Shown here in pieces: positions 37,724 to 50,715 of a DNA stretch of 64,000 nucleotides. Where the stretch lies: assembly GCF_020906515.1 (NCBI RefSeq), contig NC_085850.1:1178001-1242000 (forward strand), given 5' to 3'. The notes below the pieces were generated by a model that did no database searches, was not told where the DNA came from, and saw only the letters and a list, made by a program, of their open reading frames with translations. Numbering within the stretch: position 1 is the first letter of the stretch; each line of letters begins with the position of its first letter. Made by a program: the position numbers and the translations under genes. The stretch comes from Vanrija pseudolonga. Its lineage: Eukaryota; Basidiomycota; Tremellomycetes; Trichosporonales; Trichosporonaceae.

Positions 37724-40255
37724 ATGCCAACGCAGCACGTCAACCCCCGCGCTCGCGTTGCGCTCGCCGCGCGCGATCTCGAGCACGAGCACGAGCGCGA
37801 CGCCGCCACCGTCGTCGAACGCGCACCCGAGCCCGAGGCCGAGTCGTCGACAAGCCAGAGCCGTGAGCTGCTGATCTGGGTGCATGGGACTACCAACTGA
37901 CCACTACAGGGGCCAAGCTGCGTGCCGTCGACGAGCGCCAGGCCAAGAGTGAGCTGCGTTCGCTGGCAATGTACTGACGGCCCAGCTCTCCCATCCGCGG
38001 CCAGCTTCTATGTCCACTCGCTCCCCGGCCTCGGCGTTCTGAGTACCCACCCAACGTGCGTGCTGCTACTCGGGAGATGCCGTGGCGCAGCAGCTGACGT
38101 ACCCAGCCACCCTCTCACAGTCCACGCCGGCGAGCTCCCATCGTACCCCGGAGAAGGCAAGGGCGGTGGTGAAGGCCCGGTGGGCAAAGATGCCGAAATC
38201 TTGTGAGCTCCCCGCCGGCTAAACGGTGCTGACTCCGACTTTAGTTTCATGATGGTCCGTGCCCGTCGCTCCGCAGGCAAGCAGCGTGTCGTCTTCTGGT
38301 TCAACGTGAGTGCAGCTGAATCGTTCACCTGAGTGCAGAGCTGACTCGACAGGGAGGGCCTGGCTGCTCGTCGTTCGATGGCTCGATGATGGAGGTCGGC
38401 CCATGGAGGACGGTACCCGCATCGCAGACCGAGTCGGGGCAGGTCGAGCTCAAGCTCGTTGAAGGCGGCTGGGAGGAGTACGCCACCATGGTGTATGGTG
38501 AGTGCCGTCGTCGTGGAGCTGGCCGCTGACGCCCCAGTCGACCAGCCGCCCGGAACAGGCTATTCGTTCATCCCCAGCAACGGCTACCTGCACGAGCTGA
38601 CCGAGGCCTCGGCACACCTCATCAAGTTCATGGAGAACTTTTACACCGTCTTCCCAGAGTTGGACGGCGCAGACGTGGGTCTGGGGCGTGTCCTGTGCGC
38701 CCTCCCGCTGACTCGTACAGACCTACCTTGCAGGAGAGTCGTTTGCCGGACAATACATCCCCTACTTTGCCGACGCGTTGATAAAGAAGGACGCGACCAC
38801 CCTCCCCAACTTCAACCTCCAGGGCATTGCCATCGGCAACGGCTGGATCGACCCTCTGAGGCAGTACCCAGCCTACCTCGAGTTTGCGTACGAGAGGAAG
38901 CTCATCAAAAAGGGAAGCGACGAAGACAAGGCTGCCCATGCCGCTATGGACGAATGCGCGGCATGGATGAAGAACTACACCGACCCCTTGATCACGCCCG
39001 TCAACATTCCCCACTGTGGTGGAGTCATGGATTCGGTGACAAAGCCCGCACTGAAGGAGTGGGTTGTCGCTAGGCTGGACGGGAGCTGACTGTCGCAGGA
39101 TTGACGGACATATGAAGTGTCTCAACATCTACGACGTGCGACTGGTCGACAGTTACCCGGCGTGTGGTATGAACTGGCCACCAGACCTCTCCGACGTGTA
39201 CAAGTACCTGGCGGTGGGTGAATTTGCCGAGTCCATCTGCTGACTGGACAGCGTCGGGATGTGGTCGAGGCTCTGCACGCCACCAAGCACCAAAGGGCAT
39301 GGACGGAGTGTGACGACCGCGTCGGCAACCAGATGAGAGCTGGCAAGGAGCCAGCCTCTGTCCACCTCATCCCTGGCATCTTGGAGAAGGGCGTCAAGGT
39401 CCTCATGTTTGCCGGTGACGAGGACCTCATCTGCAACTACATTGGCATTGAGCGCATGATCGAGGCGCTGGACTGGAGCGGCGAAGTTGGGTTTGGAGCC
39501 GTGAGTCACCGCCGGTGTTGTGAGGGAAGGAATGCCCGCTCACTCTCCAGAACGCCACTGCCCAGCCTTGGTATCTCAACGACACCCAGGTCGGCGAGTG
39601 GACGACTGACCGCAACCTGTCATACGCAAGGCTGTACGAGGCATCGCACATGGTTGGTTTCGACGTCCCTCACGTCTCCAACGACATGATCATGCGCTTC
39701 ATGGATGTCGACATCAACATGTTGCCTGGTCTCACTGGCTCCGGGTCGTCTCGAGTTGGAGAAGACAAGCGGCCTGCTGTCCACTTTGGTCCTCAGCCAA
39801 CAACCTCTGGCATGCCGATTCTCAAGGGCGGAAAGGGCGACTGGGAGGGTGAGTGGTTTCTTGGCCCTTGAGTACAGCCACTGACGCATTCAGAATGGTA
39901 CAACGCCGTCTCGGCTGTCCTTATCCTCCTCACGCTCATCGGCATCGTTGGCGTCTACCTCTTTGTTCGACACAGGCGAATGCGTCGCGGCCTCTCGCTG
40001 CCAACCCACGCCGGTCGTCGCTCAAACGACGGTAACCGCGAGGAGAGGATGCCTCTGGCCGGAGCAGACGAGTACGAGCTGGATGACGGTGTTGGCGGTA
40101 ACGGTGCCGCCGACAGCCGCGGGAAGGGCAAGGGCAAGAGCCGCGCACGGACGAGCGATGAGCTTGACGAGGAGGAGCATGGCAAGGACCCCAACCATGT
40201 GTTTGCGCTTGGTGATGAGGACGAGCACGACCACGAGTATGACGCTGGCAAGTAG
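37724..40255 (+). CDS. KEX1: KEX1-type serine carboxypeptidase of the late Golgi
   Basis: Twelve exons (37724-37862, 37910-37948, 37986-38055, 38107-38202, 38245-38305, 38353-38497, 38538-38674, 38721-39058, 39099-39213, 39252-39500, 39551-39848, 39894-40255) give 682 residues from the first in-frame ATG. Serine carboxypeptidase motifs are in order: [42 protein letters not shown] (nucleophile Ser), [14 protein letters not shown] (Asp) and [11 protein letters not shown] (His). A transmembrane helix ([20 protein letters not shown]) and an acidic cytosolic tail near the end are the KEX1 hallmark. The enzyme trims C-terminal Lys/Arg from peptides cut by Kex2. The start is doubtful: no signal peptide follows ATG 37724, but the open frame just upstream reads a hydrophobic stretch. 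Confidence 0.9.
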
Positions 40256-41815: not shown

Positions 41816-41950
41816 CGCACGGTAGTAGTAGTGGTACGGTAGGCTTGAATGTGGATCACATGTGTTGTTTCTGACCTCACGGCCGTTGCAGTGTCTGCCT
41901 GCTGGCGACTACACAGAAGGGCAGCATAGCTTAGTTCATGTTTCGGCCGC

Positions 41951-42004
41951 GCTGAACACACATGTCGCGCTGAACACACATGTCGCGCTGAACACACATG
42001 TCGC
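41951..42004 (+). repeat. Three exact 18-bp tandem repeats
   Basis: GCTGAACACACATGTCGC occurs three times without mismatch, about 160-210 bp upstream of the ATG of island copy 1. Each unit includes ACATGT, a palindromic hexamer. No similar array was seen before the other copies. Confidence 0.95.
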
Positions 42005-42160
42005 GCCGAGGACACGGGTTTCCGAGCAGCACGGGGTACCGCACAGTTGCACCGATATGGTCACTGAAGAGCTCGTTGCTAGACCACGATGTGTATATCA
42101 CCGGACGTCTCCACCGTCGGCATCGCAACTCGCGCTCACACCCACGCCGACGACCCCACC

Positions 42161-42883
42161 ATGTCCTTCAACTGCTCGTACCCCTACAACCCCAACGTGA
42201 CGTGCTTCCTCCAGCCCGCCGTGTACAACAACACTGCGTACGCCCTCATGTACGACGCCGATATGGCCCAGGCTGGGCAATGCCTCCTGCAATACGACAT
42301 CGTCTTCACCGAGTGCGTCACGAAGTCGAAGGAGCGCCGAGCGGCGCTTGGCCTGCCGTCTGGGTCGCACGCGCGACCGACACTCGGGCGTCTCCCACTG
42401 CTCCTCCTCCTCTTCCTCGTCTTCCTCTCTGCCGCCTGCGCGAAAGCAGTCTCGTGCTCGCGTTTCGACCCCGACTCCCGCGACGCATGGGACTGGAACG
42501 CGGTCACCCCGAGCATCAGGCTAGAGGACGCAGCAAGCCTGTGCTTCGCCAACGCCCCGTGTGGCGGGCCCTTCAAAGAAACGGCGACGACATCGCTCAC
42601 ATGGGCTGTGAACGGGACCGTCGAAGTCAAAGTCAAGCCCGCCGACGTGGTCGCCCTCGTCGGTGGGTCGTACGCGACCAAAGTCACGTCCGTGCCCGCC
42701 GACGGCATGTGGATCAATCATGGCAGAGCCTACATGACCACCTTTGCCTACGCGGTGAATGTTTCCGGCTGGTTTGAACAGTGCTCAGACGGGCAGAGGT
42801 ATCGTGGCTCTGCCCTGGTGCCGGACGGCGATAGGGTCGCGCTCCGGTACTTCTATACCGACCAAGCGGGCTCTGGTGCGTAG
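42161..42883 (+). CDS. Island family copy 1: internal signal-anchor protein of unknown function
   Basis: Intronless, 240 residues. Residues 1-65 begin MSFNCSYPYNPNVTC and end in the basic ECVTKSKERRAALGLPSG. A hydrophobic segment follows (LPLLLLLFLVFLSAACAKA, about 73-92), ending in an Ala-x-Ala pattern like a signal peptidase site. The C-terminal domain (about 93-240) has DAWDWNAVTP, a Cys pair, VALVGGSYATKVTSVP, a VSGWFEQCSD block and YRGSALVPDGDRV. The same blocks recur in five neighbours, so the frame is real. Sequons (NCS, NVT, NNT) lie on the N-terminal side and NGT on the C-terminal side. No known family was recognised. The C-terminal domain is probably extracellular. The start is fixed by identity with copies 2 and 3. 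Confidence 0.8.
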   Translation: MSFNCSYPYNPNVTCFLQPAVYNNTAYALMYDADMAQAGQCLLQYDIVFTECVTKSKERRAALGLPSGSHARPTLGRLPLLLLLFLVFLSAACAKAVSCSRFDPDSRDAWDWNAVTPSIRLEDAASLCFANAPCGGPFKETATTSLTWAVNGTVEVKVKPADVVALVGGSYATKVTSVPADGMWINHGRAYMTTFAYAVNVSGWFEQCSDGQRYRGSALVPDGDRVALRYFYTDQAGSGA

Positions 42884-43045
42884 TCGCTACTGTCCTCTGT
42901 CTCGGATGAGCAAGTGCGGGCCAGATCGTGTGGCCGTCGAGTTTCTGTTAATCCATAGTCGCATGCCAATCATGGTGGTGGTCGCCGCCACAAAGCAGCA
43001 ATGCCAGTGCGACAAGGACGCGCGCCACCACCAACCAGTACTCAC

Positions 43046-43128
43046 CAAAGATAGTCACTCCGCCATGACTCGGCCGAGCCAACGACCAGCTGCGGTCGGA
43101 TTCGGAGCGTCGGGCTCACAGCCTACCA
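43046..43128 (+). repeat. Upstream block shared by island copies 1 and 2 (second copy)
   Basis: Counterpart of 41733-41815 (see that entry); it lies about 408 bp before the ATG of copy 2, matching the spacing at copy 1. Confidence 0.7.
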
Positions 43129-43453
43129 AGACGTGCATAAACGCGCAGCAGTGGCGGCGGAGTAGTCTTTGATTGTTGATCACGTGCCAAGTCCGTGACC
43201 TCATGGCGGTGAGTGCCTCACCCATAGTGCGGTGCCTCAGCGTACATAGCGCCGACATAGCCTCGGCGCGCGACGTCATGTTTCGGTGCGCAGCACGCAT
43301 CTGACGCGGCGAGGGGCGGGGTGGCGAGCAGCAAGGGGTAGGGCACGAACACGGCCATGCTGTCGCCAAGGTGCTCTGTGGCAAGCAAGGGCTTCCGCTC
43401 ACTATATCACCGACAGCCTCGCCACTGTCTCCCCCGCCAATCAACCCAGCACA

Positions 43454-44169
43454 ATGTCCTTCAACTGCTCGTACCTCTACAACCCGAACGTGACGTGCCT
43501 CCAACCCAACAACGTCTCCGCCAACGGCGTCGCCTACGTCCTCTTGTATGATGCCGATATGGCGAAGGCCGGAAAGTGCCTCCTGTCCCAGGACTTGGTC
43601 TTCACCGAATGCGTGACGCAGTCAAAGGAGCGGCGTGCTGCGCTTGGCTTGCCGTCTGGGTCGCGCGCTGTACCCACCCTCGGCCCTCTGCCGCTACTCC
43701 TCCTCGTCCTCGCCTTCCTCTCCGCCACCTGCGCGAAAGCAGTCCCGTGCTCAAGCTTCACACCCGACCCCCGCGACACATGGAACTGGAACGCCACCAC
43801 TGAGGGCACAGTGCTCAGTGGTGCCGACGATTGCAGCGTCGCGGCTTGTGGCGGGAACATCACCAATACTACGACAATCAAGCTGGAATGGGAGGTGAAT
43901 ACGACAGCGGTAGAGGTCAAGGCCGCGGCGGCAGACATCGTTGCCACCGTGGGCGGTCGTATGCGACCCAGGTGACCTCGGTGCCAACTGACGGCATGTG
44001 GATTCTCAACGGCAGGGCCTACCTTATCGCCTATGCCCACGCCGTGCAGGTGCAGGGATGGTTCGAAGGCTGTTCGGACAGACAGAGGTATCGCGGCTCG
44101 GCACTGGTTCCGGACGGCGATAGGGTCGTCCTCCGCTACGTCTACACGGATCGGACTCGCCGGCGATGA
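43454..44169 (+). pseudogene. Island family copy 2, looks broken
   Basis: This copy keeps the family start (MSFNCSYLYNPNVTC), the KERRAALGLPSG stretch, the hydrophobic segment ending ATCAKA, and recognisable C-terminal blocks including YRGSALVPDGDRVV. It is closest to copy 1, with which it shares the upstream block. It appears to be interrupted by about one break and is otherwise little decayed, so the loss looks recent. A sequencing error cannot be excluded. Intronless. Confidence 0.7.
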
Positions 44170-44834
44170 TAGCCATTGGCCCCTGCCCACCAACTGTACC
44201 CTAGCTGCCCGTCTGATCACATAGCCACATAGCTACAGTAGTAGTAACAGGCGATCCCTCGAGCTCGTTCCGCATGTAGGAATCTCCTATGCCCTGCGAC
44301 GAACACCGTATAACCGCACGTTGGCGTGCCACTTCTATCTAGCCCTCCCGATACATTCCATTCAACCAGCCCATCCGAGGCTGGTTACTGCTCCGAGGCA
44401 ATGCATTGCCTTCTCAGATTTCGCCACTTGGATGTTGAATCGCCACTGCGAACCTGTGTCGGTTTAAGGTACGGCGGTCCGGCATCAAGCTCTCACCGAT
44501 TGGGCTCGTCGTCACCCACCTACAACACTACTGGCGCCAGTGAGCGCAGCATCGACACTAGAGAAGGCCGCCAAGCCACCCACGAGAGGTTTCATTCCTT
44601 CACAGCGCACCGCGGAGTATCTGTGCGGCTACCGACATGGCATTACCCATCTGTTTCAGTTCTACTTCAGCTCCATCACGAGGCACCAGCTGAAGTAGCC
44701 GCTGCGCAGCCTAAACTAGTATCGGGTCGACAGCCACACTTAAGCCCATACCACCGGTTGTCTCCCCTGTCTGTGTCGCCACCTATACCCACAACCACAC
44801 CCACGCCCATACCCACACCCACGCACACCAAGCA
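44170..44834. other. Upstream region of island copy 3
   Basis: This 665-bp stretch between copies 2 and 3 has no supported gene. The last 70 bp before copy 3 are CCCA/CACCC-rich. The block shared by the copies 1 and 2 upstream regions was not recognised here. Confidence 0.45.
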
Positions 44835-45554
44835 ATGTCTCTCAACTGCTCGTACCCCTACAACCCGAACGTAACGTGCCTCCACCCACACAACATCTCC
44901 GCGAACGGCGTCGCATACGTCCTCCTCCGCGATGACCAGATGGACCTCGCGGGCTGGTGCCTCCTGGACCACAACACGGTCTTCACGAACTGCGTCACTC
45001 AGTCGAAGGAGCGGCGCAAGGCGCTCGGCCTGCCCTCTGGAACAGGGCCCACTCTCGGCCCACTTCCGCTCATCCTCCTCGTCCTCGCTTTCGTTTCTGC
45101 AGTCTCGGCGAGCGTCATCCCCCGCGCAATCTCGTGCTCCAGCTTTGAGCCCGACCCGCGCGACGCGTGGAACTGGAACGCATACACCCAGACGAGGTTG
45201 CTCGGCGGCGGCGGCGCAATCTCGTGCAACGGTCTCCCATGCGGCGGCTCCTTCAACGACACGAAAACGACCTATCTCTCATGGCAGCTTCAGAACACCT
45301 CGGTGTCTATCAACGTCAACGCCAAGCCTGCAGACGTGGTCAAAGTCGTCGGCGGGACAGATGCGGAGCAGGTGACCTCTGTGCCCGCCAAGGGCCTGTG
45401 GTTGCTTCACGGCATCGGTATCCCCGCCACATATGCCTACGCTGTCGATGTCCCAGGGTGGTATAGCGGCTGCTCGGATCGACAGCGATACCGCGGGTCC
45501 GCTCTCGTGCCGGACAGCGACAGAATCGTCCTCTACTACCTCATCACGGATTGA
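44835..45554 (+). CDS. Island family copy 3: internal signal-anchor protein of unknown function
   Basis: Intronless, 239 residues, with the full family layout. The N-terminal module is MSLNCSYPYNPNVTCLHPHN with the CVTQSKERRKALGLPSGTG basic stretch. The hydrophobic segment is LPLILLVLAFVSAVSASV. The C-terminal domain starts ISCSSFEPDPRDAWNWNAYT and has a Cys pair, VVKVVGGTDAEQVTSVP, VDVPGWYSGCSD and YRGSALVPDSDRIV. Three possible sequons in the C-terminal half (NDT, NTS and the N-terminal NIS) suit a secretory-pathway protein. DNA similarity to copy 1 is high just after the ATG. Function unknown. Confidence 0.8.
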   Translation: MSLNCSYPYNPNVTCLHPHNISANGVAYVLLRDDQMDLAGWCLLDHNTVFTNCVTQSKERRKALGLPSGTGPTLGPLPLILLVLAFVSAVSASVIPRAISCSSFEPDPRDAWNWNAYTQTRLLGGGGAISCNGLPCGGSFNDTKTTYLSWQLQNTSVSINVNAKPADVVKVVGGTDAEQVTSVPAKGLWLLHGIGIPATYAYAVDVPGWYSGCSDRQRYRGSALVPDSDRIVLYYLITD

Positions 45555-46204
45555 GACGTAGCAAGACTGTCGAGATAGCCCCCAGCCCAAGCCCCAGAGG
45601 CGGGTCACATGTCCGTCCACCTAGTGCATAGTAGTATGCATGTACGTAGCCTGAGTGAGGTTTGGGGTGGTACTAGAGAGCACAGCCATGCCAGCAGCGA
45701 TGTCGAATGATGTCACCGACTACCTCGTCTTGGCATAGCTGAGAACACCGAGATTCACAGCCCTTTCAAACATGCCATACCTCGGCTGCGGCGAGAAGGT
45801 GCGGCTCACATGACTCTGCCGAGACTCGTCTCCGTTGTGGGTCACGCGGAGCGGCTGTTACAAACCGACCAGTGGGCGCAGCAAGCTGGCTAGTGCCTGG
45901 GTTTCTCTATTATGAGTTCCGGTCGGCGGATACGGACGAGAGGAAGAGGAGACAACACGAGCCAAGCTGGCGCTAGATATAGTGTGGCGCGCGGCCGGCT
46001 CCACTGGTTCTCAGTTCGTGGCACTCGGCGTGTCATGTTTCCACGACTGCTCGCTGATGATCTGCGCCACCAGCCTGTCTACCAGAGGAAGCCAAGATTG
46101 CTCGCTATGACAGCATGTCATGTCCGCAGCGAGCTGCTATTTGGCGATGGAGACTGCCCTTCCTCGAGGTGGCGGCCGACGCAGAGGATGGAAATGCTGC
46201 CCTA
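45555..46204. other. Spacer between island copies 3 and 4
   Basis: This 650-bp stretch has no frame with family motifs, no RNA gene and no repeat that I could recognise. The signal segment and N-terminal module expected for copy 4 are not found here. Confidence 0.45.
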
Positions 46205-46661
46205 GCTCGAGCCTTGCCCCTCTGTGCCTCGAGAGACTCTTTACACTCAGTCATTGCACCCTGATGGTGACAAGAGCACTTGGAACTTCAATGCCTACAC
46301 CGATGCCATCGAGGTCACCTCCAAGGTCGACTGCAGGTCCTCTCCTTCGCCCTGCAGCGTCTCAACAACAACGGCACAGTCGGCGACGTTCACCATCAAC
46401 TACGAGGTGTCTGTTTCCACCGACGTACTGTTCGCCTCCTTCTCAGCTTCCATTGGGGCATCCTATGCTGAGTCCTGGACAGTCTCCACAACCTTAACCC
46501 TCTATGTACCAGTGGGCCAAATCGGGGCTCTCGAGGTTTACAGCCAGGCGGTCGACGTCCCCGGCTGGTACCGCGACTGTGGGGACGGCTGGGACTATCG
46601 CGGGTCTGCCCTCATACGTAAGGAGAGTGGCGACCGCTGGGCCGTCATGATCACCGACTAG
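46205..46661 (+). pseudogene. Island family copy 4, C-terminal remnant
   Basis: Only the C-terminal domain is recognisable: STWNFNAYTD, a beta-rich Ser/Thr stretch with ASIGASYAESWTVSTTLT, VPVGQIGAL, VDVPGWYRDCGDGWDYRGSA. No N-terminal module, signal segment or plausible start codon precedes it, so it looks like a 5'-truncated relic. An unseen upstream exon is the alternative. Its beta-rich stretch is shared only with copy 5, so these two form a subfamily distinct from copies 1-3. Confidence 0.6.
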
Positions 46662-47754
46662 GAGTGTGAAGAGGGTACATTACATTGTATCAAAGAGAGA
46701 GCAAGCCTTTCATCGGCGACAACCACAGAGAAAATCAGGATAACAGGTCGCGGGGGTCCATATGTACGAATGAACTTGGCTGTGGCTTCCCCCAAGAACG
46801 CATGCCAGTCAGAGGCGCATTCGGGGAGGTCCTTACGAGGCGGAAAGGACTGGGGGGCAGGAGGAGTGACGTCGGGATGCGTTCATGGACGTTTACGCAC
46901 GACGCCTCCTAACACGGTGGCCGGATACCCCTTGAATGGGTACATATTGAGGTACGGTTGGCATGGCACTAGAGCGGAGCGGGGGAGAGATATGCAGTCG
47001 CTGCCGAAGCACGTTCGCCCCATCATCGCATCTCTTCCACATGGAAGCAGCGGAGCACGGTCGACTTCTCAGATCACACGTTCTCTCCTTCACAACGTCA
47101 TGATAACTGGTGCGAGGTATGTACCAAAAGTCGTTAAACAAGCATGGATCGGTTAGTTGACCAGTTATATTCCCTCCGCATCTGCCCGAAAACATGGTGT
47201 GGCATTCGTCGAATCGTATGACGCACGTCTACCCCGGTGATAACGTGCTAGCGGGCTACGAGTTTCCACGGATGAAACACGAATGGGTGGTTTCCGGCCA
47301 ACTACTGTTATGCTATGCTTTCATGCTGCAACCCCAAGTGACGCCTCTCGATCTCGTTGAGGCGATGTAGACACACGACGCCCAACCAGGACTCGCGACG
47401 CCGCCACACTTGCTCTACGACGCGGTGCGACGGTACGGGATGAAGTTCTCGGGGCCGAAGTGTTGTGATGGGGGATGTCACTGGTGCGACGGAAGGGGTG
47501 AGTTGTTTAGCTTGTTACGGTTAAGTTGTAAAGTTTACGAGTTGGCCGTTCGGAGTACGTGGGGTCTTGCGTGGGTGGGAATGGTGGGCAGAGAAAAGTC
47601 TTGGGAGACAACGCTTCGGGACGGCCAGCGCCAGCCGAGCCACGCGAAGTGGCAAGACTATGAATCGGTCCGTGTTGCCCCGTACTCAGTGGGGAAGGAT
47701 TATACCTTGATAAGGGGCCCAAGGAAGGAATGTCGTGGGACAGGAACAAGCTCA

Positions 47755-48012
47755 CGACGCCTGTAACACGACAACGTCGAGTGGCACTCCTGTGGCATCA
47801 AACTTACACGTTTGTTTGTCTGATGCTGCTGCTGGTCTCTCCGCGACGTCACTTCCAGAAAGGAGTACATCAGCACAGACGTCACTCTGACGGTTGTAAT
47901 GGGCGTCTTTAGGGCGCGGAGACCGGGCGGTTTGAGGGCAGCTAGGACTTGTTTGGACGGACCGGCGCGCGACGCTCCAACACGACAAGAAGTGGCACTT
48001 GTGGCGGAAACG
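47755..48012 (+). repeat. Diverged direct repeat pair
   Basis: CGACGC..AACACGACAA...AGTGGCACT..TGTGGC..AAAC occurs at about 47755-47800 and again at about 47964-48012 with short gaps. The roughly 200-bp interval has no feature. Origin unknown. Confidence 0.45.
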
Positions 48013-48180
48013 CGCGGCTGCATCGTTGATCAACTTCTTCTACTGCTCTTCAACAATTCAGTACGACTCTCAAAGGCGTTCAGGTGGTCCCCCTTGTCAG
48101 CTGATGTTGGCCTTCCCACTAGACGGTATGCGAGGTGAAAGAGGGGACCGGGTCCGATGCGGCGATGCCTTTTTGTAACG

Positions 48181-48188
48181 TATAAAAG
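48181..48188 (+). promoter_or_regulatory. TATA box of island copy 5
   Basis: TATAAAAG lies about 168 bp before the ATG of copy 5 and is preceded by a T-run. It is the clearest core-promoter element in the island. Confidence 0.6.
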
Positions 48189-48348
48189 CAGTGTCCTGCT
48201 CGGTTCCAAGGCTTCAGTCCAAGTCATTCCATCGACTCTCCGAATAGCTCTACTCTTCCACCCTACTGTCTCCCTCTATCTAGTACGTTGCTATGGTTTA
48301 ATCTAACAGGGCTGACAAGAACCAAGCTGCCACGAGCAACGATCAACA

Positions 48349-49461
48349 ATGACGCCACTTCGTCTCCTCTCCGCACTTTTCGCCACGCTGAGCCTCCCTT
48401 GGGGCGTTCAAGCTGCCCCCAACGCCGTGCCTCCCTCGCGAGCCGAGCCCAACGTTCCGCTCGTCAGCGCCGTGCCTCTTGACTTGTCCATCTCCCAGCC
48501 GATCGTCCAGCGTATCGACAACAACAAGCGAGGCTGCGGGCCCGCCGAGTCGCCTGCCTGCAACAACCCGTGCAAGGGGTACAGCACGGGCGGCATCATT
48601 GCCGATGCCAACGTGTACTCCGACTCCAAGTGCCAGAAGCTCATCAAGCACATCTCCATCGCCATCCCCTGCCCGTACTCGTTCTGCACGGGCGACATGA
48701 CTTGCGCGGGGCCCCTCGGCGACGGCCTCCCGAACGACGTGTGGATCAAGGCCAATGGCGGGTTTGACGGCGACGCCAAGCTCGACATCACAAAGGGGAC
48801 CAACTGTCCGGCCGGCGGGTCGGGGGGCACCAAGGTCCAGATCCACGGCAGGGGCTCGTGCGTTCAGCTCCAGAACGTCAAGCCGAACATGGGCCTGTCC
48901 TTCTGGCCGTGCGGAAGCTACGACATCGACCGTCGCGGCGGCAATAGCTCTGTCTCGGAGCCGCCGAGTCCGGCTCGCGAAGAGCCGATTCGCCGTCGCG
49001 CCGAGGGGGCAGCCATGATGATTGGCAGGGAGACCAAGCCCAAGTGCAAGACCTTTGACGCGGACCCTCGCACGACGTGGGACACCAACGCCTACACGCC
49101 CAACAAGAAGCTTAGCGCCCGGATCGACTGCTCCAACTCCCAGAGCGACTGCCCGATCACCCAAGCATACGCCAAGACTGTCACCTGGACTACGACGTGG
49201 AACGTCGGAGTGGATGTCAGCATCGGAAAGGTCTTTGGTCTTTCGGCCTCCAGTAGTGGTTCCTACGCCGAGTCCACCACCGAGACGATCACCCTTGATC
49301 ACTCGGTGCCCAAGGGCCAGATCGGCTACCTCACAGGGTACACTCTCGCTGCCAAAGTTCCCGGATGGTACCGCGACTGCGGCAACGGGTATGACTACCG
49401 CGGCTCCGCCCTCATCCCCAAGGTCAATGGTGCCACTTTTGATGTGCAGCTCACAGAGTAG
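48349..49461 (+). CDS. Island family copy 5: secreted preproprotein-like member with added Cys-rich module
   Basis: Intronless, 370 residues. A classical signal peptide (MTPLRLLSALFATLSLPWG, predicted end near AQA at residue 22) replaces the N-terminal module of the other copies. A short pro-like stretch ends in Lys-Arg (residues 60-61), then a Cys-rich module (about 62-195, about 10 Cys, with CGPAESPACNNPC and CPYSFCTGDMTC) runs to Arg-Arg near 195 and Arg-Arg-Arg at 215-217. The family C-terminal domain follows: FDADPRTTWDTNAYTP, a beta-rich segment with LSASSSGSYAESTTETI, VPKGQIGYLTGYT, VPGWYRDCGNGYDYRGSALI. The basic sites suggest Kex2-type processing into two parts. The alternating Ser/Thr strands recall aerolysin-fold proteins, but this is only a hypothesis. 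Function unknown. Confidence 0.78.
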   Translation: MTPLRLLSALFATLSLPWGVQAAPNAVPPSRAEPNVPLVSAVPLDLSISQPIVQRIDNNKRGCGPAESPACNNPCKGYSTGGIIADANVYSDSKCQKLIKHISIAIPCPYSFCTGDMTCAGPLGDGLPNDVWIKANGGFDGDAKLDITKGTNCPAGGSGGTKVQIHGRGSCVQLQNVKPNMGLSFWPCGSYDIDRRGGNSSVSEPPSPAREEPIRRRAEGAAMMIGRETKPKCKTFDADPRTTWDTNAYTPNKKLSARIDCSNSQSDCPITQAYAKTVTWTTTWNVGVDVSIGKVFGLSASSSGSYAESTTETITLDHSVPKGQIGYLTGYTLAAKVPGWYRDCGNGYDYRGSALIPKVNGATFDVQLTE

Positions 49462-50001
49462 CACCGTCACAGGTGCATAAGTAGCCTCTTCTCCTCTTCC
49501 CCACAACACGCCCGTCGTTGTGGAGTTCTGTGCTCAATTCGTCCGCTCCAGTATAAGATTTTTACAAATTGCCACAAAAGCCAAAGAAAATAGCTCCACG
49601 AAGAAACCAGTTCAATGAAGTTCGTATTGAAGTTGCTTGCCGGCGCAAGGGGGTTCGAACTAAGTCTTTCTCATCCTCACGCCGTTCGTGCTGTGGGCCG
49701 CTCGTCATGAAACGAACCCGGCATGTATGCATCATCCTTGCACGTACGAAGCTGGGTTGCCCCTCTCACATGACAGAGCCCACCCTGAATTCTGGGAGGG
49801 CTAGCGGTGTGGGGAGTTGCCACATCCTGCTGGTCGTCGCCAAGTGAACTGGTCCAGGCACTGCCTGCCCCTGTCCAGCTGCATCAAGTACGACTCACTC
49901 ACTCACCACTGCGTGCATCGTGAGCTCGATACTCATCACACTCGTCAATGTTGCAGGCATAATCCAACACCCACACGTTGCCCACTACTTCGCCACCGGC
50001 C
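49462..50001. other. Spacer between island copies 5 and 6
   Basis: This 540-bp stretch contains the 3' region of copy 5 and the promoter of copy 6. A palindromic GTTCGAAC occurs near 49654, but surrounding bases do not form a tRNA T arm. Nothing else recognised. Confidence 0.45.
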
Positions 50002-50715
50002 ATGTCGACCTTCAACTGCTCATACACGCCCTCGCCGGCCCAGCTGACCGGCTGCCCGGCCTTCAACGTCAGCTACGCGCCCGACAACAAGACGGCGTAC
50101 GCGATCATTGCCGACAAGGACATGGGCGGCGTGGGAAAGTGTCTCGCGAACAGCGGGCTGGTGTTCAACGAGTGCGTCACGAAGTCCAAGGAGCGGCGGG
50201 GGAAGCCCAGCGGCGCAGCGAAGCTCGGCATAGCCCCGCTGTTCGTCCTCGTGCTCGCGTTCCTCGCGGCCACCGCGTCAGCAGCCGTCACATGCAAGCA
50301 ATTCGACGCCTCCGACCGGTCCAGCTGGGACTGGAACGCCTTCACGCCCAACCAGCGCCTCGGCGCCCGGATCGACTGCACCAATGCCGGCTCGGCATGC
50401 GGCGGTGGTCCCTCAAGCGACGCGGCGACCTTCAGTGCGGGGTGGCAGGTGACCAACGGCACGGGCGTCAGCGTGGACGCCAAACTCGCGAGCGTCGTCG
50501 CGCTCGTTGGCGGCTCGTATGCCGAGCAGGCGACGTCCGTGCCCGTCGAGGGGCTGTACGTCCCCCGCGGACAGCTCGGATGGCTCACGGCGTACACGTA
50601 CGCCGTCGCCGTCGGCGGCACGTTCCGCGACTGCTCCGATGGCGCCGTGTATGCCGGGTCCGCGCTGGTCCCGGACGGCGATAGGGTCGTGTACCGTGTT
50701 GTGCTGGGCGAGTGA
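50002..50715 (+). CDS. Island family copy 6: internal signal-anchor protein of unknown function
   Basis: Intronless, 237 residues, the most divergent full-length member of the copies 1-3 type. It begins MSTFNCSYTPSPAQLTGC and keeps ECVTKSKERRGKPSG before the hydrophobic segment APLFVLVLAFLAATASAAVTC, whose Ala-Ser-Ala is a good signal peptidase site. The C-terminal domain has SSWDWNAFTPNQRLGARIDC, VALVGGSYAEQATSVP, a GTFRDCSDG block and YAGSALVPDGDRVVY, with YAG in place of YRG. Very high GC3 suggests it is expressed and selected. It closes the island before the PhzF-like gene. Confidence 0.8.
   Translation: MSTFNCSYTPSPAQLTGCPAFNVSYAPDNKTAYAIIADKDMGGVGKCLANSGLVFNECVTKSKERRGKPSGAAKLGIAPLFVLVLAFLAATASAAVTCKQFDASDRSSWDWNAFTPNQRLGARIDCTNAGSACGGGPSSDAATFSAGWQVTNGTGVSVDAKLASVVALVGGSYAEQATSVPVEGLYVPRGQLGWLTAYTYAVAVGGTFRDCSDGAVYAGSALVPDGDRVVYRVVLGE

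Follow-up and report, generated by a model that had tools for sequence, protein, structure and literature searches.

A tandem DUF6060 gene island in Vanrija pseudolonga combining a putatively secreted and a putatively tethered layout around a predicted aerolysin-like domain

The killer toxin K62 is an aerolysin-family protein described as having a signal peptide, an N domain, one Lys-Arg (KR) site and a disulphide-bonded core, and it has more than 1,000 relatives, with Basidiomycota contributing 1.2% of the top 1,000 (PMC13211469, PMC12691639, in the portions available to us). Immunity to K62 is encoded in the genome, by a mechanism that the accessible part of one report gives as undetermined (PMC12691639). 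In a literature search for DUF6060 and its accession PF19535, the family was mentioned in one paper only, which, in the part of it at hand, calls the domain unknown and lists the protein that carries it among the putative effectors of Plenodomus lingam (PMC10381368); the identifier PF19535 was not mentioned. Here we analyze an island of six genes or gene pieces at positions 42161-50715 of a 64,000-nucleotide window (G000:C2:1178001-1242000) of the genome of Vanrija pseudolonga, a basidiomycete yeast belonging to the Trichosporonales. The ordinary reading of this island is a tandem DUF6060 family. The better reading appears to be a locus of aerolysin-like proteins, one of them in a killer-toxin layout and several of them tethered to a membrane.

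All six members, designated g1 to g6, lie on the forward strand, and open frames were found for each of the genes and relics that a preliminary description had placed here. Four are intact single exons beginning with ATG: g1 (42161-42883, 240 residues), g3 (44835-45554, 239 residues), g5 (48349-49461, 370 residues) and g6 (50002-50715, 237 residues). The fragment g4 (46206-46661) has no ATG and contains the C-terminal domain only, and g2 is split between two frames (43454-43975 and 43957-44169). The C-terminal domain common to all six, which had been proposed from its motifs, held up. Read by eye, W-x-W-N-A is present in four of the six copies (WNFNA in g4, WDTNA in g5), V-x-G-W-[FY]-x2-C in five (VGGTFRDC in g6), and YRGSAL likewise in five (YAGSAL in g6); the second and third motifs of g2 lie past its frame shift. 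In searches of the 24.9-Mb genome (9 contigs), where copy counts for large families are lower bounds, g5 matched g4 (1.4e-29), g6 (1.1e-28), a seventh copy on contig C5 (7.0e-17), g1 (1.0e-14) and g3 (4.3e-10), with g2 absent from the matches listed, and g3 matched g1 (1.2e-78), g2 (1.9e-59) and g6 (2.5e-45). These E-values rule out chance resemblance of the copies. When the genome was queried with g3, g4, P0010 of V. albida and P0014, no further match was strong enough to count as an eighth copy, the next-best E-values being 0.03 and 0.05. Neither the contig C5 copy nor the existence of two layouts, described below, had been noted in the preliminary description.

The family had been taken as undescribed, a claim that does not survive comparison with Pfam. 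The relative P0006 scores 35.9 bits against DUF6060, above the curated cut-off of 26.5 bits, and is 86.5% identical to the contig C5 copy, which is in turn matched by the island genes; through this homology the island domain belongs with DUF6060. Direct matches are weaker: g6, the sole copy in the window to give one, scores 22.9 bits (24.0 for the domain alone) and P0008 scores 22.9, all below the cut-off, and a DUF6060 match at E up to 10 was seen in 10 of 17 aligned members. Searched singly against Pfam, g1 to g5 gave no DUF6060 match, nor did P0005, P0007 or the contig C5 copy. In g6, P0006 and P0008 the alignment to the family profile of 171 positions covers positions 3-131 and lies in the C-terminal domain, with the N-tail and hydrophobic segment of the island proteins falling outside the matched region. 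Relatives were found by protein database search in V. albida and Pseudozyma hubeiensis, although one such search missed g1, g3 and g6 of the window itself, so that its failure to list further V. albida copies carries no weight. Nine relatives (P0008, P0009 and P0011-P0017), of which P0008 and P0012 come from Pseudozyma hubeiensis, form a group that we call smut-type. Profile-profile comparison joined the C-terminal domains of the Vanrija and smut-type proteins at 98.5%, and those of g4 and g5 to either group at 99.2-99.8%. P0008 and P0012 carry the database name "DNA excision repair protein" despite possessing an N-tail, a hydrophobic segment and a DUF6060-type domain, and this name looks wrong. 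An NCBIfam search gave nothing useful.

Two layouts are present among these proteins, one in g5 and the other in g1, g2, g3 and g6. In g5 a signal peptide predicted from hydropathy is followed by Lys60-Arg61 (48526-48531), a chain containing ten cysteines, Arg215-217 (48991-48999) and the DUF6060/aerolysin-like domain (residues 233-370, 49045-49458); the two basic sites may be cleaved by a Kex2-type protease, the first before the cysteine-rich N chain and the second at its boundary with the C-terminal chain. The N chain itself (48535-48990) had no paralogue in the genome search, and a search of the protein database with whole g5, accepting E-values up to 1, listed no relative of it. No known fold was obtained for this chain, for which the predicted local distance difference test score was mostly below 50 when it was predicted within g5 rather than alone.

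The tethered layout of g1, g2, g3, g6, the contig C5 copy and the relatives begins with an N-tail (about 62-78 residues, four or six cysteines), which is followed by a hydrophobic core and the domain; in g1 the tail spans residues 1-77 (four cysteines) and the core residues 78-94, and g3 and g6 are built alike. Exceptions are P0015 and P0016, where gene models with a start further upstream give a longer tail, and the partial P0017, which has a shorter tail containing one cysteine. When the 15 residues on either side of the core are compared, the preceding stretch carries more positive charge in all 17 proteins of this layout, with a difference of a single unit in P0006 and P0010. This charge difference argues for an N-tail inside and a domain outside the cell. 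Small residues after the core are also compatible with signal peptidase cleavage, and KR-D-V, a likely Kex2 site, stands directly before the domain in all nine smut-type proteins. A single homologous N-tail domain in the Vanrija and smut-type proteins was considered and rejected (profile-profile 0.3%, rising to 1.7% when the hydrophobic segment was included); the likeness of layout therefore gives no proof of common ancestry.

Structure prediction suggests what the shared domain may be. The model has strands at residues 8-13, 20-24 and 43-54, then a loop, and further strands at 84-95, 100-119 and 125-144; the order of the strands, the split in the first of them and the place of the loop all agree with the aerolysin core. 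Of the 34 structural matches listed, 33 belong to one superfamily. The DUF6060 domain thus modeled probably has an aerolysin-like fold. A match to a characterized family, which the preliminary description had set against the novelty of these proteins, is approached by this fold only, because DUF6060 has no assigned function. The matches have low Z scores and the hairpin is modeled with low confidence. Structure alignments with the haemolytic lectin of Laetiporus sulphureus (LSL, 1w3a) show 13-14% identity. LSL is a pore-forming lectin, and it differs in its separate lectin domain and its lack of a tether.

The candidate membrane-insertion hairpin of g5 (residues 276-324, 49174-49320) starts in the last part of strand beta2 and takes in the loop and strand beta3. 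Hairpins were measured in proteins other than g2 and the contig C5 copy, the latter being represented by P0006 and P0010, and P0012, in which part of the domain is missing, was left out of the loop test and of alignment A7. Ser and Thr make up 35% of the hairpin in g5 and 33% in g4, against a background of 19%, while the six tethered Vanrija proteins (g1, g3, g6, P0005, P0006 and P0010) have 17-20%. Polar/non-polar alternation reached 10 of 12 in g5, g4 and g1 (equaled by 45, 73 and 60 of 1000 shuffles, respectively) and 4-8 in the other 13 of 16 rows. Compared with the printed 37-residue loop of K62 only, g5 was equaled by 11 and 2 of 1000 shuffles and g4 by 8 and 5, and 14 of 16 proteins did no better than 86 of 1000. 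By this comparison g4 and g5, alone among the 16, are more similar to the printed loop than chance would give.

We propose, with a probability of roughly 55%, that the island is a locus of secreted and membrane-tethered aerolysin-fold proteins for microbial competition, in which g5 is processed and forms pores as K62 does. Competition had been suggested before as a function and is still the best guess; for antimicrobial pore formation taken alone, the odds seem even. From the features above we infer processing, topology, pore formation and target as follows. The signal peptide would direct the g5 preproprotein to the secretory path, where Kex2-type cleavage at Lys60-Arg61 and Arg215-217 would release the cysteine-rich N chain and the aerolysin-like chain. 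The secreted chain, or a complex containing it, could then oligomerize on the membrane of a neighbor and insert its Ser/Thr-rich hairpin, as proposed for K62. In g1, g3 and g6, and in g2 while it was intact, one signal anchor would cross the membrane once, holding the same fold outside and leaving an N-tail of about 60-78 residues in the cytosol, and these copies may be either released later or kept on the surface of the producer.

The resemblance to K62 is confined to g5 for the signal peptide, N domain, dibasic site and predicted C-terminal aerolysin-like core, and extends to g4 for the Ser/Thr-rich insertion loop. The two systems differ in that K62 has a single KR site where g5 has KR and RRR, the g5 N chain has ten cysteines while the N domain of K62 reportedly has none for an interdomain bond, and the tethered Vanrija copies have no counterpart in the descriptions of K62 available to us. 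As a putative secreted precursor with dibasic sites, g5 is also reminiscent of the K1/K2/SMK superfamily as outlined in the accessible part of PMC13404059, but its 19-residue windows of highest hydropathy, three of which were listed, are all N-terminal and so give no hint of a central hydrophobic helix, and it has no Pfam match such as DUF5341. The K62 core has one cysteine before and five after the hairpin, whereas g5 has three before (233, 261 and 268) and one after (344); we therefore suggest that g5 works like K62, not that it is a K62-like protein. Several observations count against the proposal. The alternation of the g1 hairpin equals that of g5 and is marginal in both, and eight smut-type proteins have a raised Ser and Thr content (23-29%) without strong alternation. 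The N-tails of g1, g2, g3 and g6 carry three NxS/T sites each (shuffle chance 0.01-0.04), as does that of P0005 (0.04), and such recurring sites (42161-42391 in g1, and in g2, g3 and g6) are at odds with a tail predicted to be cytosolic from its charge; their enrichment reaches 0.05 in only five of 14 proteins, the other nine giving 0.12-0.47.

It is possible, if doubtful, that these proteins do have an aerolysin-like scaffold but do not use it for pores, the tethered copies being surface or cell-wall glycoproteins such as adhesins or sugar binders on a type II anchor, and g5 their secreted version. Such a role would suit the tethering of most copies, the background-level Ser and Thr of the six tethered Vanrija hairpins, the frequent glycosylation sites of some copies and the very diverse functional contexts reported for the aerolysin fold (PMC3110756, in the part available); the K62-like hairpin in g4 and g5 and the layout of g5 as a processed secreted precursor speak against it. 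A spurious fold match, with DUF6060 being some other long-stranded beta fold and the island a commonplace multigene family of secreted proteins whose function is unrelated, seems unlikely: the low Z scores, the low hairpin confidence and a sequence search of the PDB that gave no link to the island domains would favor it, but the strand and loop arrangement of the model, including the split in its first strand, fits the aerolysin core, and the listed structural matches fall almost wholly within one superfamily. Very improbable, in our judgment, is a role as secreted, effector-like proteins whose target is a plant or some other host instead of competing microbes. The Plenodomus lingam effector and the relatives in Pseudozyma hubeiensis point that way, but the former is a prediction (PMC10381368), and Vanrija is treated as saprotrophic, though named as a possible future opportunist, in the accessible part of PMC12820176.

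A long shot within the aerolysin-like interpretation is that the island is a killer-and-immunity array, with g5 as a secreted aerolysin-type toxin and tethered g1, g3 and g6 as immunity. Their hairpins lack Ser/Thr-rich character, and in the membranes of the producer they might join toxin chains, incoming or newly made, as non-inserting subunits that block pores there. If true, this would be a concrete form of the genome-encoded immunity reported for K62 (PMC12691639, as available). With secreted and tethered copies side by side, fungal self-resistance to aerolysin-type toxins becomes testable by gene deletion. If the predicted fold is right, a fungal family of unknown function, DUF6060, becomes an aerolysin-like family and gains tethered members with a cytosolic N-tail, a layout not met in the accessible portions of the literature consulted.

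The expansion had also been described as looking recent, which divergence among the copies does not support. Nei-Gojobori estimates of synonymous (dS) and nonsynonymous (dN) divergence, made for whole genes and for each of their two parts, among g1, the 5' part of g2 and g3 give dS of 0.56-1.07 and dN/dS of 0.29-0.48; for the last third of g1, g2 and g3 alone, dS is 1.11-2.07. Comparisons of g1 and g3 with g6 give dS of 0.77-1.31 and dN/dS of 0.42-0.71, and dN/dS is 0.14-0.50 for g4 versus g5, where dS is saturated, and 0.64-1.2 for g1 versus the contig C5 copy. P0005, encoded on a Logan contig, has 82% identity with g3 and 61% with g1, so the copies split before the P0005 lineage diverged. 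In a tree of 18 rows, arbitrarily rooted and with P0012 left out, g3 groups with P0005, followed by g1 and g2; the contig C5 copy groups with P0006 and P0010 of V. albida; and g5 and g4 branch deepest, towards the smut-type proteins. Taken together, these values, identities and groupings show purifying selection on the array and an origin that is not very recent.

The 5' part of g2 encodes the N-tail and the hydrophobic segment and reaches halfway through the domain, with the frame lost at about 43955-43975, and the 3' part continues in another frame with the second half. The NCBI model LOC62_02G002243 (P0007) bridges the break by omitting 23 nucleotides as an intron, which we judge short for one. 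Since both halves are conserved, a frame shift or an assembly error is more likely; the conservation of the 3' part (dN/dS 0.14-0.30 against g1, g3 and g6) indicates that the break, if not an error of assembly, arose very recently. Hidden 5' exons of g4 were sought by tblastn with g1, g3, g5 and g6, and nothing convincing was found upstream. A transposon-like repeated insert in the gap at 46662-48340 was likewise rejected, as a DNA search returned that stretch alone.

Pfam matches of the flanking genes give the order calreticulin-type protein, methyltransferase, S10 carboxypeptidase, island, PhzF, NOT2, MFS transporter and GT61, with no match for three further flanking open frames, and agree with the earlier view that tandem genes, probably for secreted or surface proteins, lie between the S10 carboxypeptidase and PhzF. 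Viral and prokaryotic contig scans returned nothing informative for the island. The S10 serine carboxypeptidase upstream of the island (38712-40255; Pfam matches at 38712-39686, then a frame encoding a hydrophobic segment and an acidic tail) is presumably KEX1-like. Kex1 contributes to the maturation of killer toxins such as K1, according to the available part of PMC7021474. That such a gene adjoins the island is probably a coincidence. The units of g1, g2 and g3 are spaced at 1.29-1.40 kb with a trace of repeated DNA upstream, and a tandem repeat of an 18-bp unit (41948-42006; 3.3 copies, 100% matches) lies about 150 bases 5' of g1.

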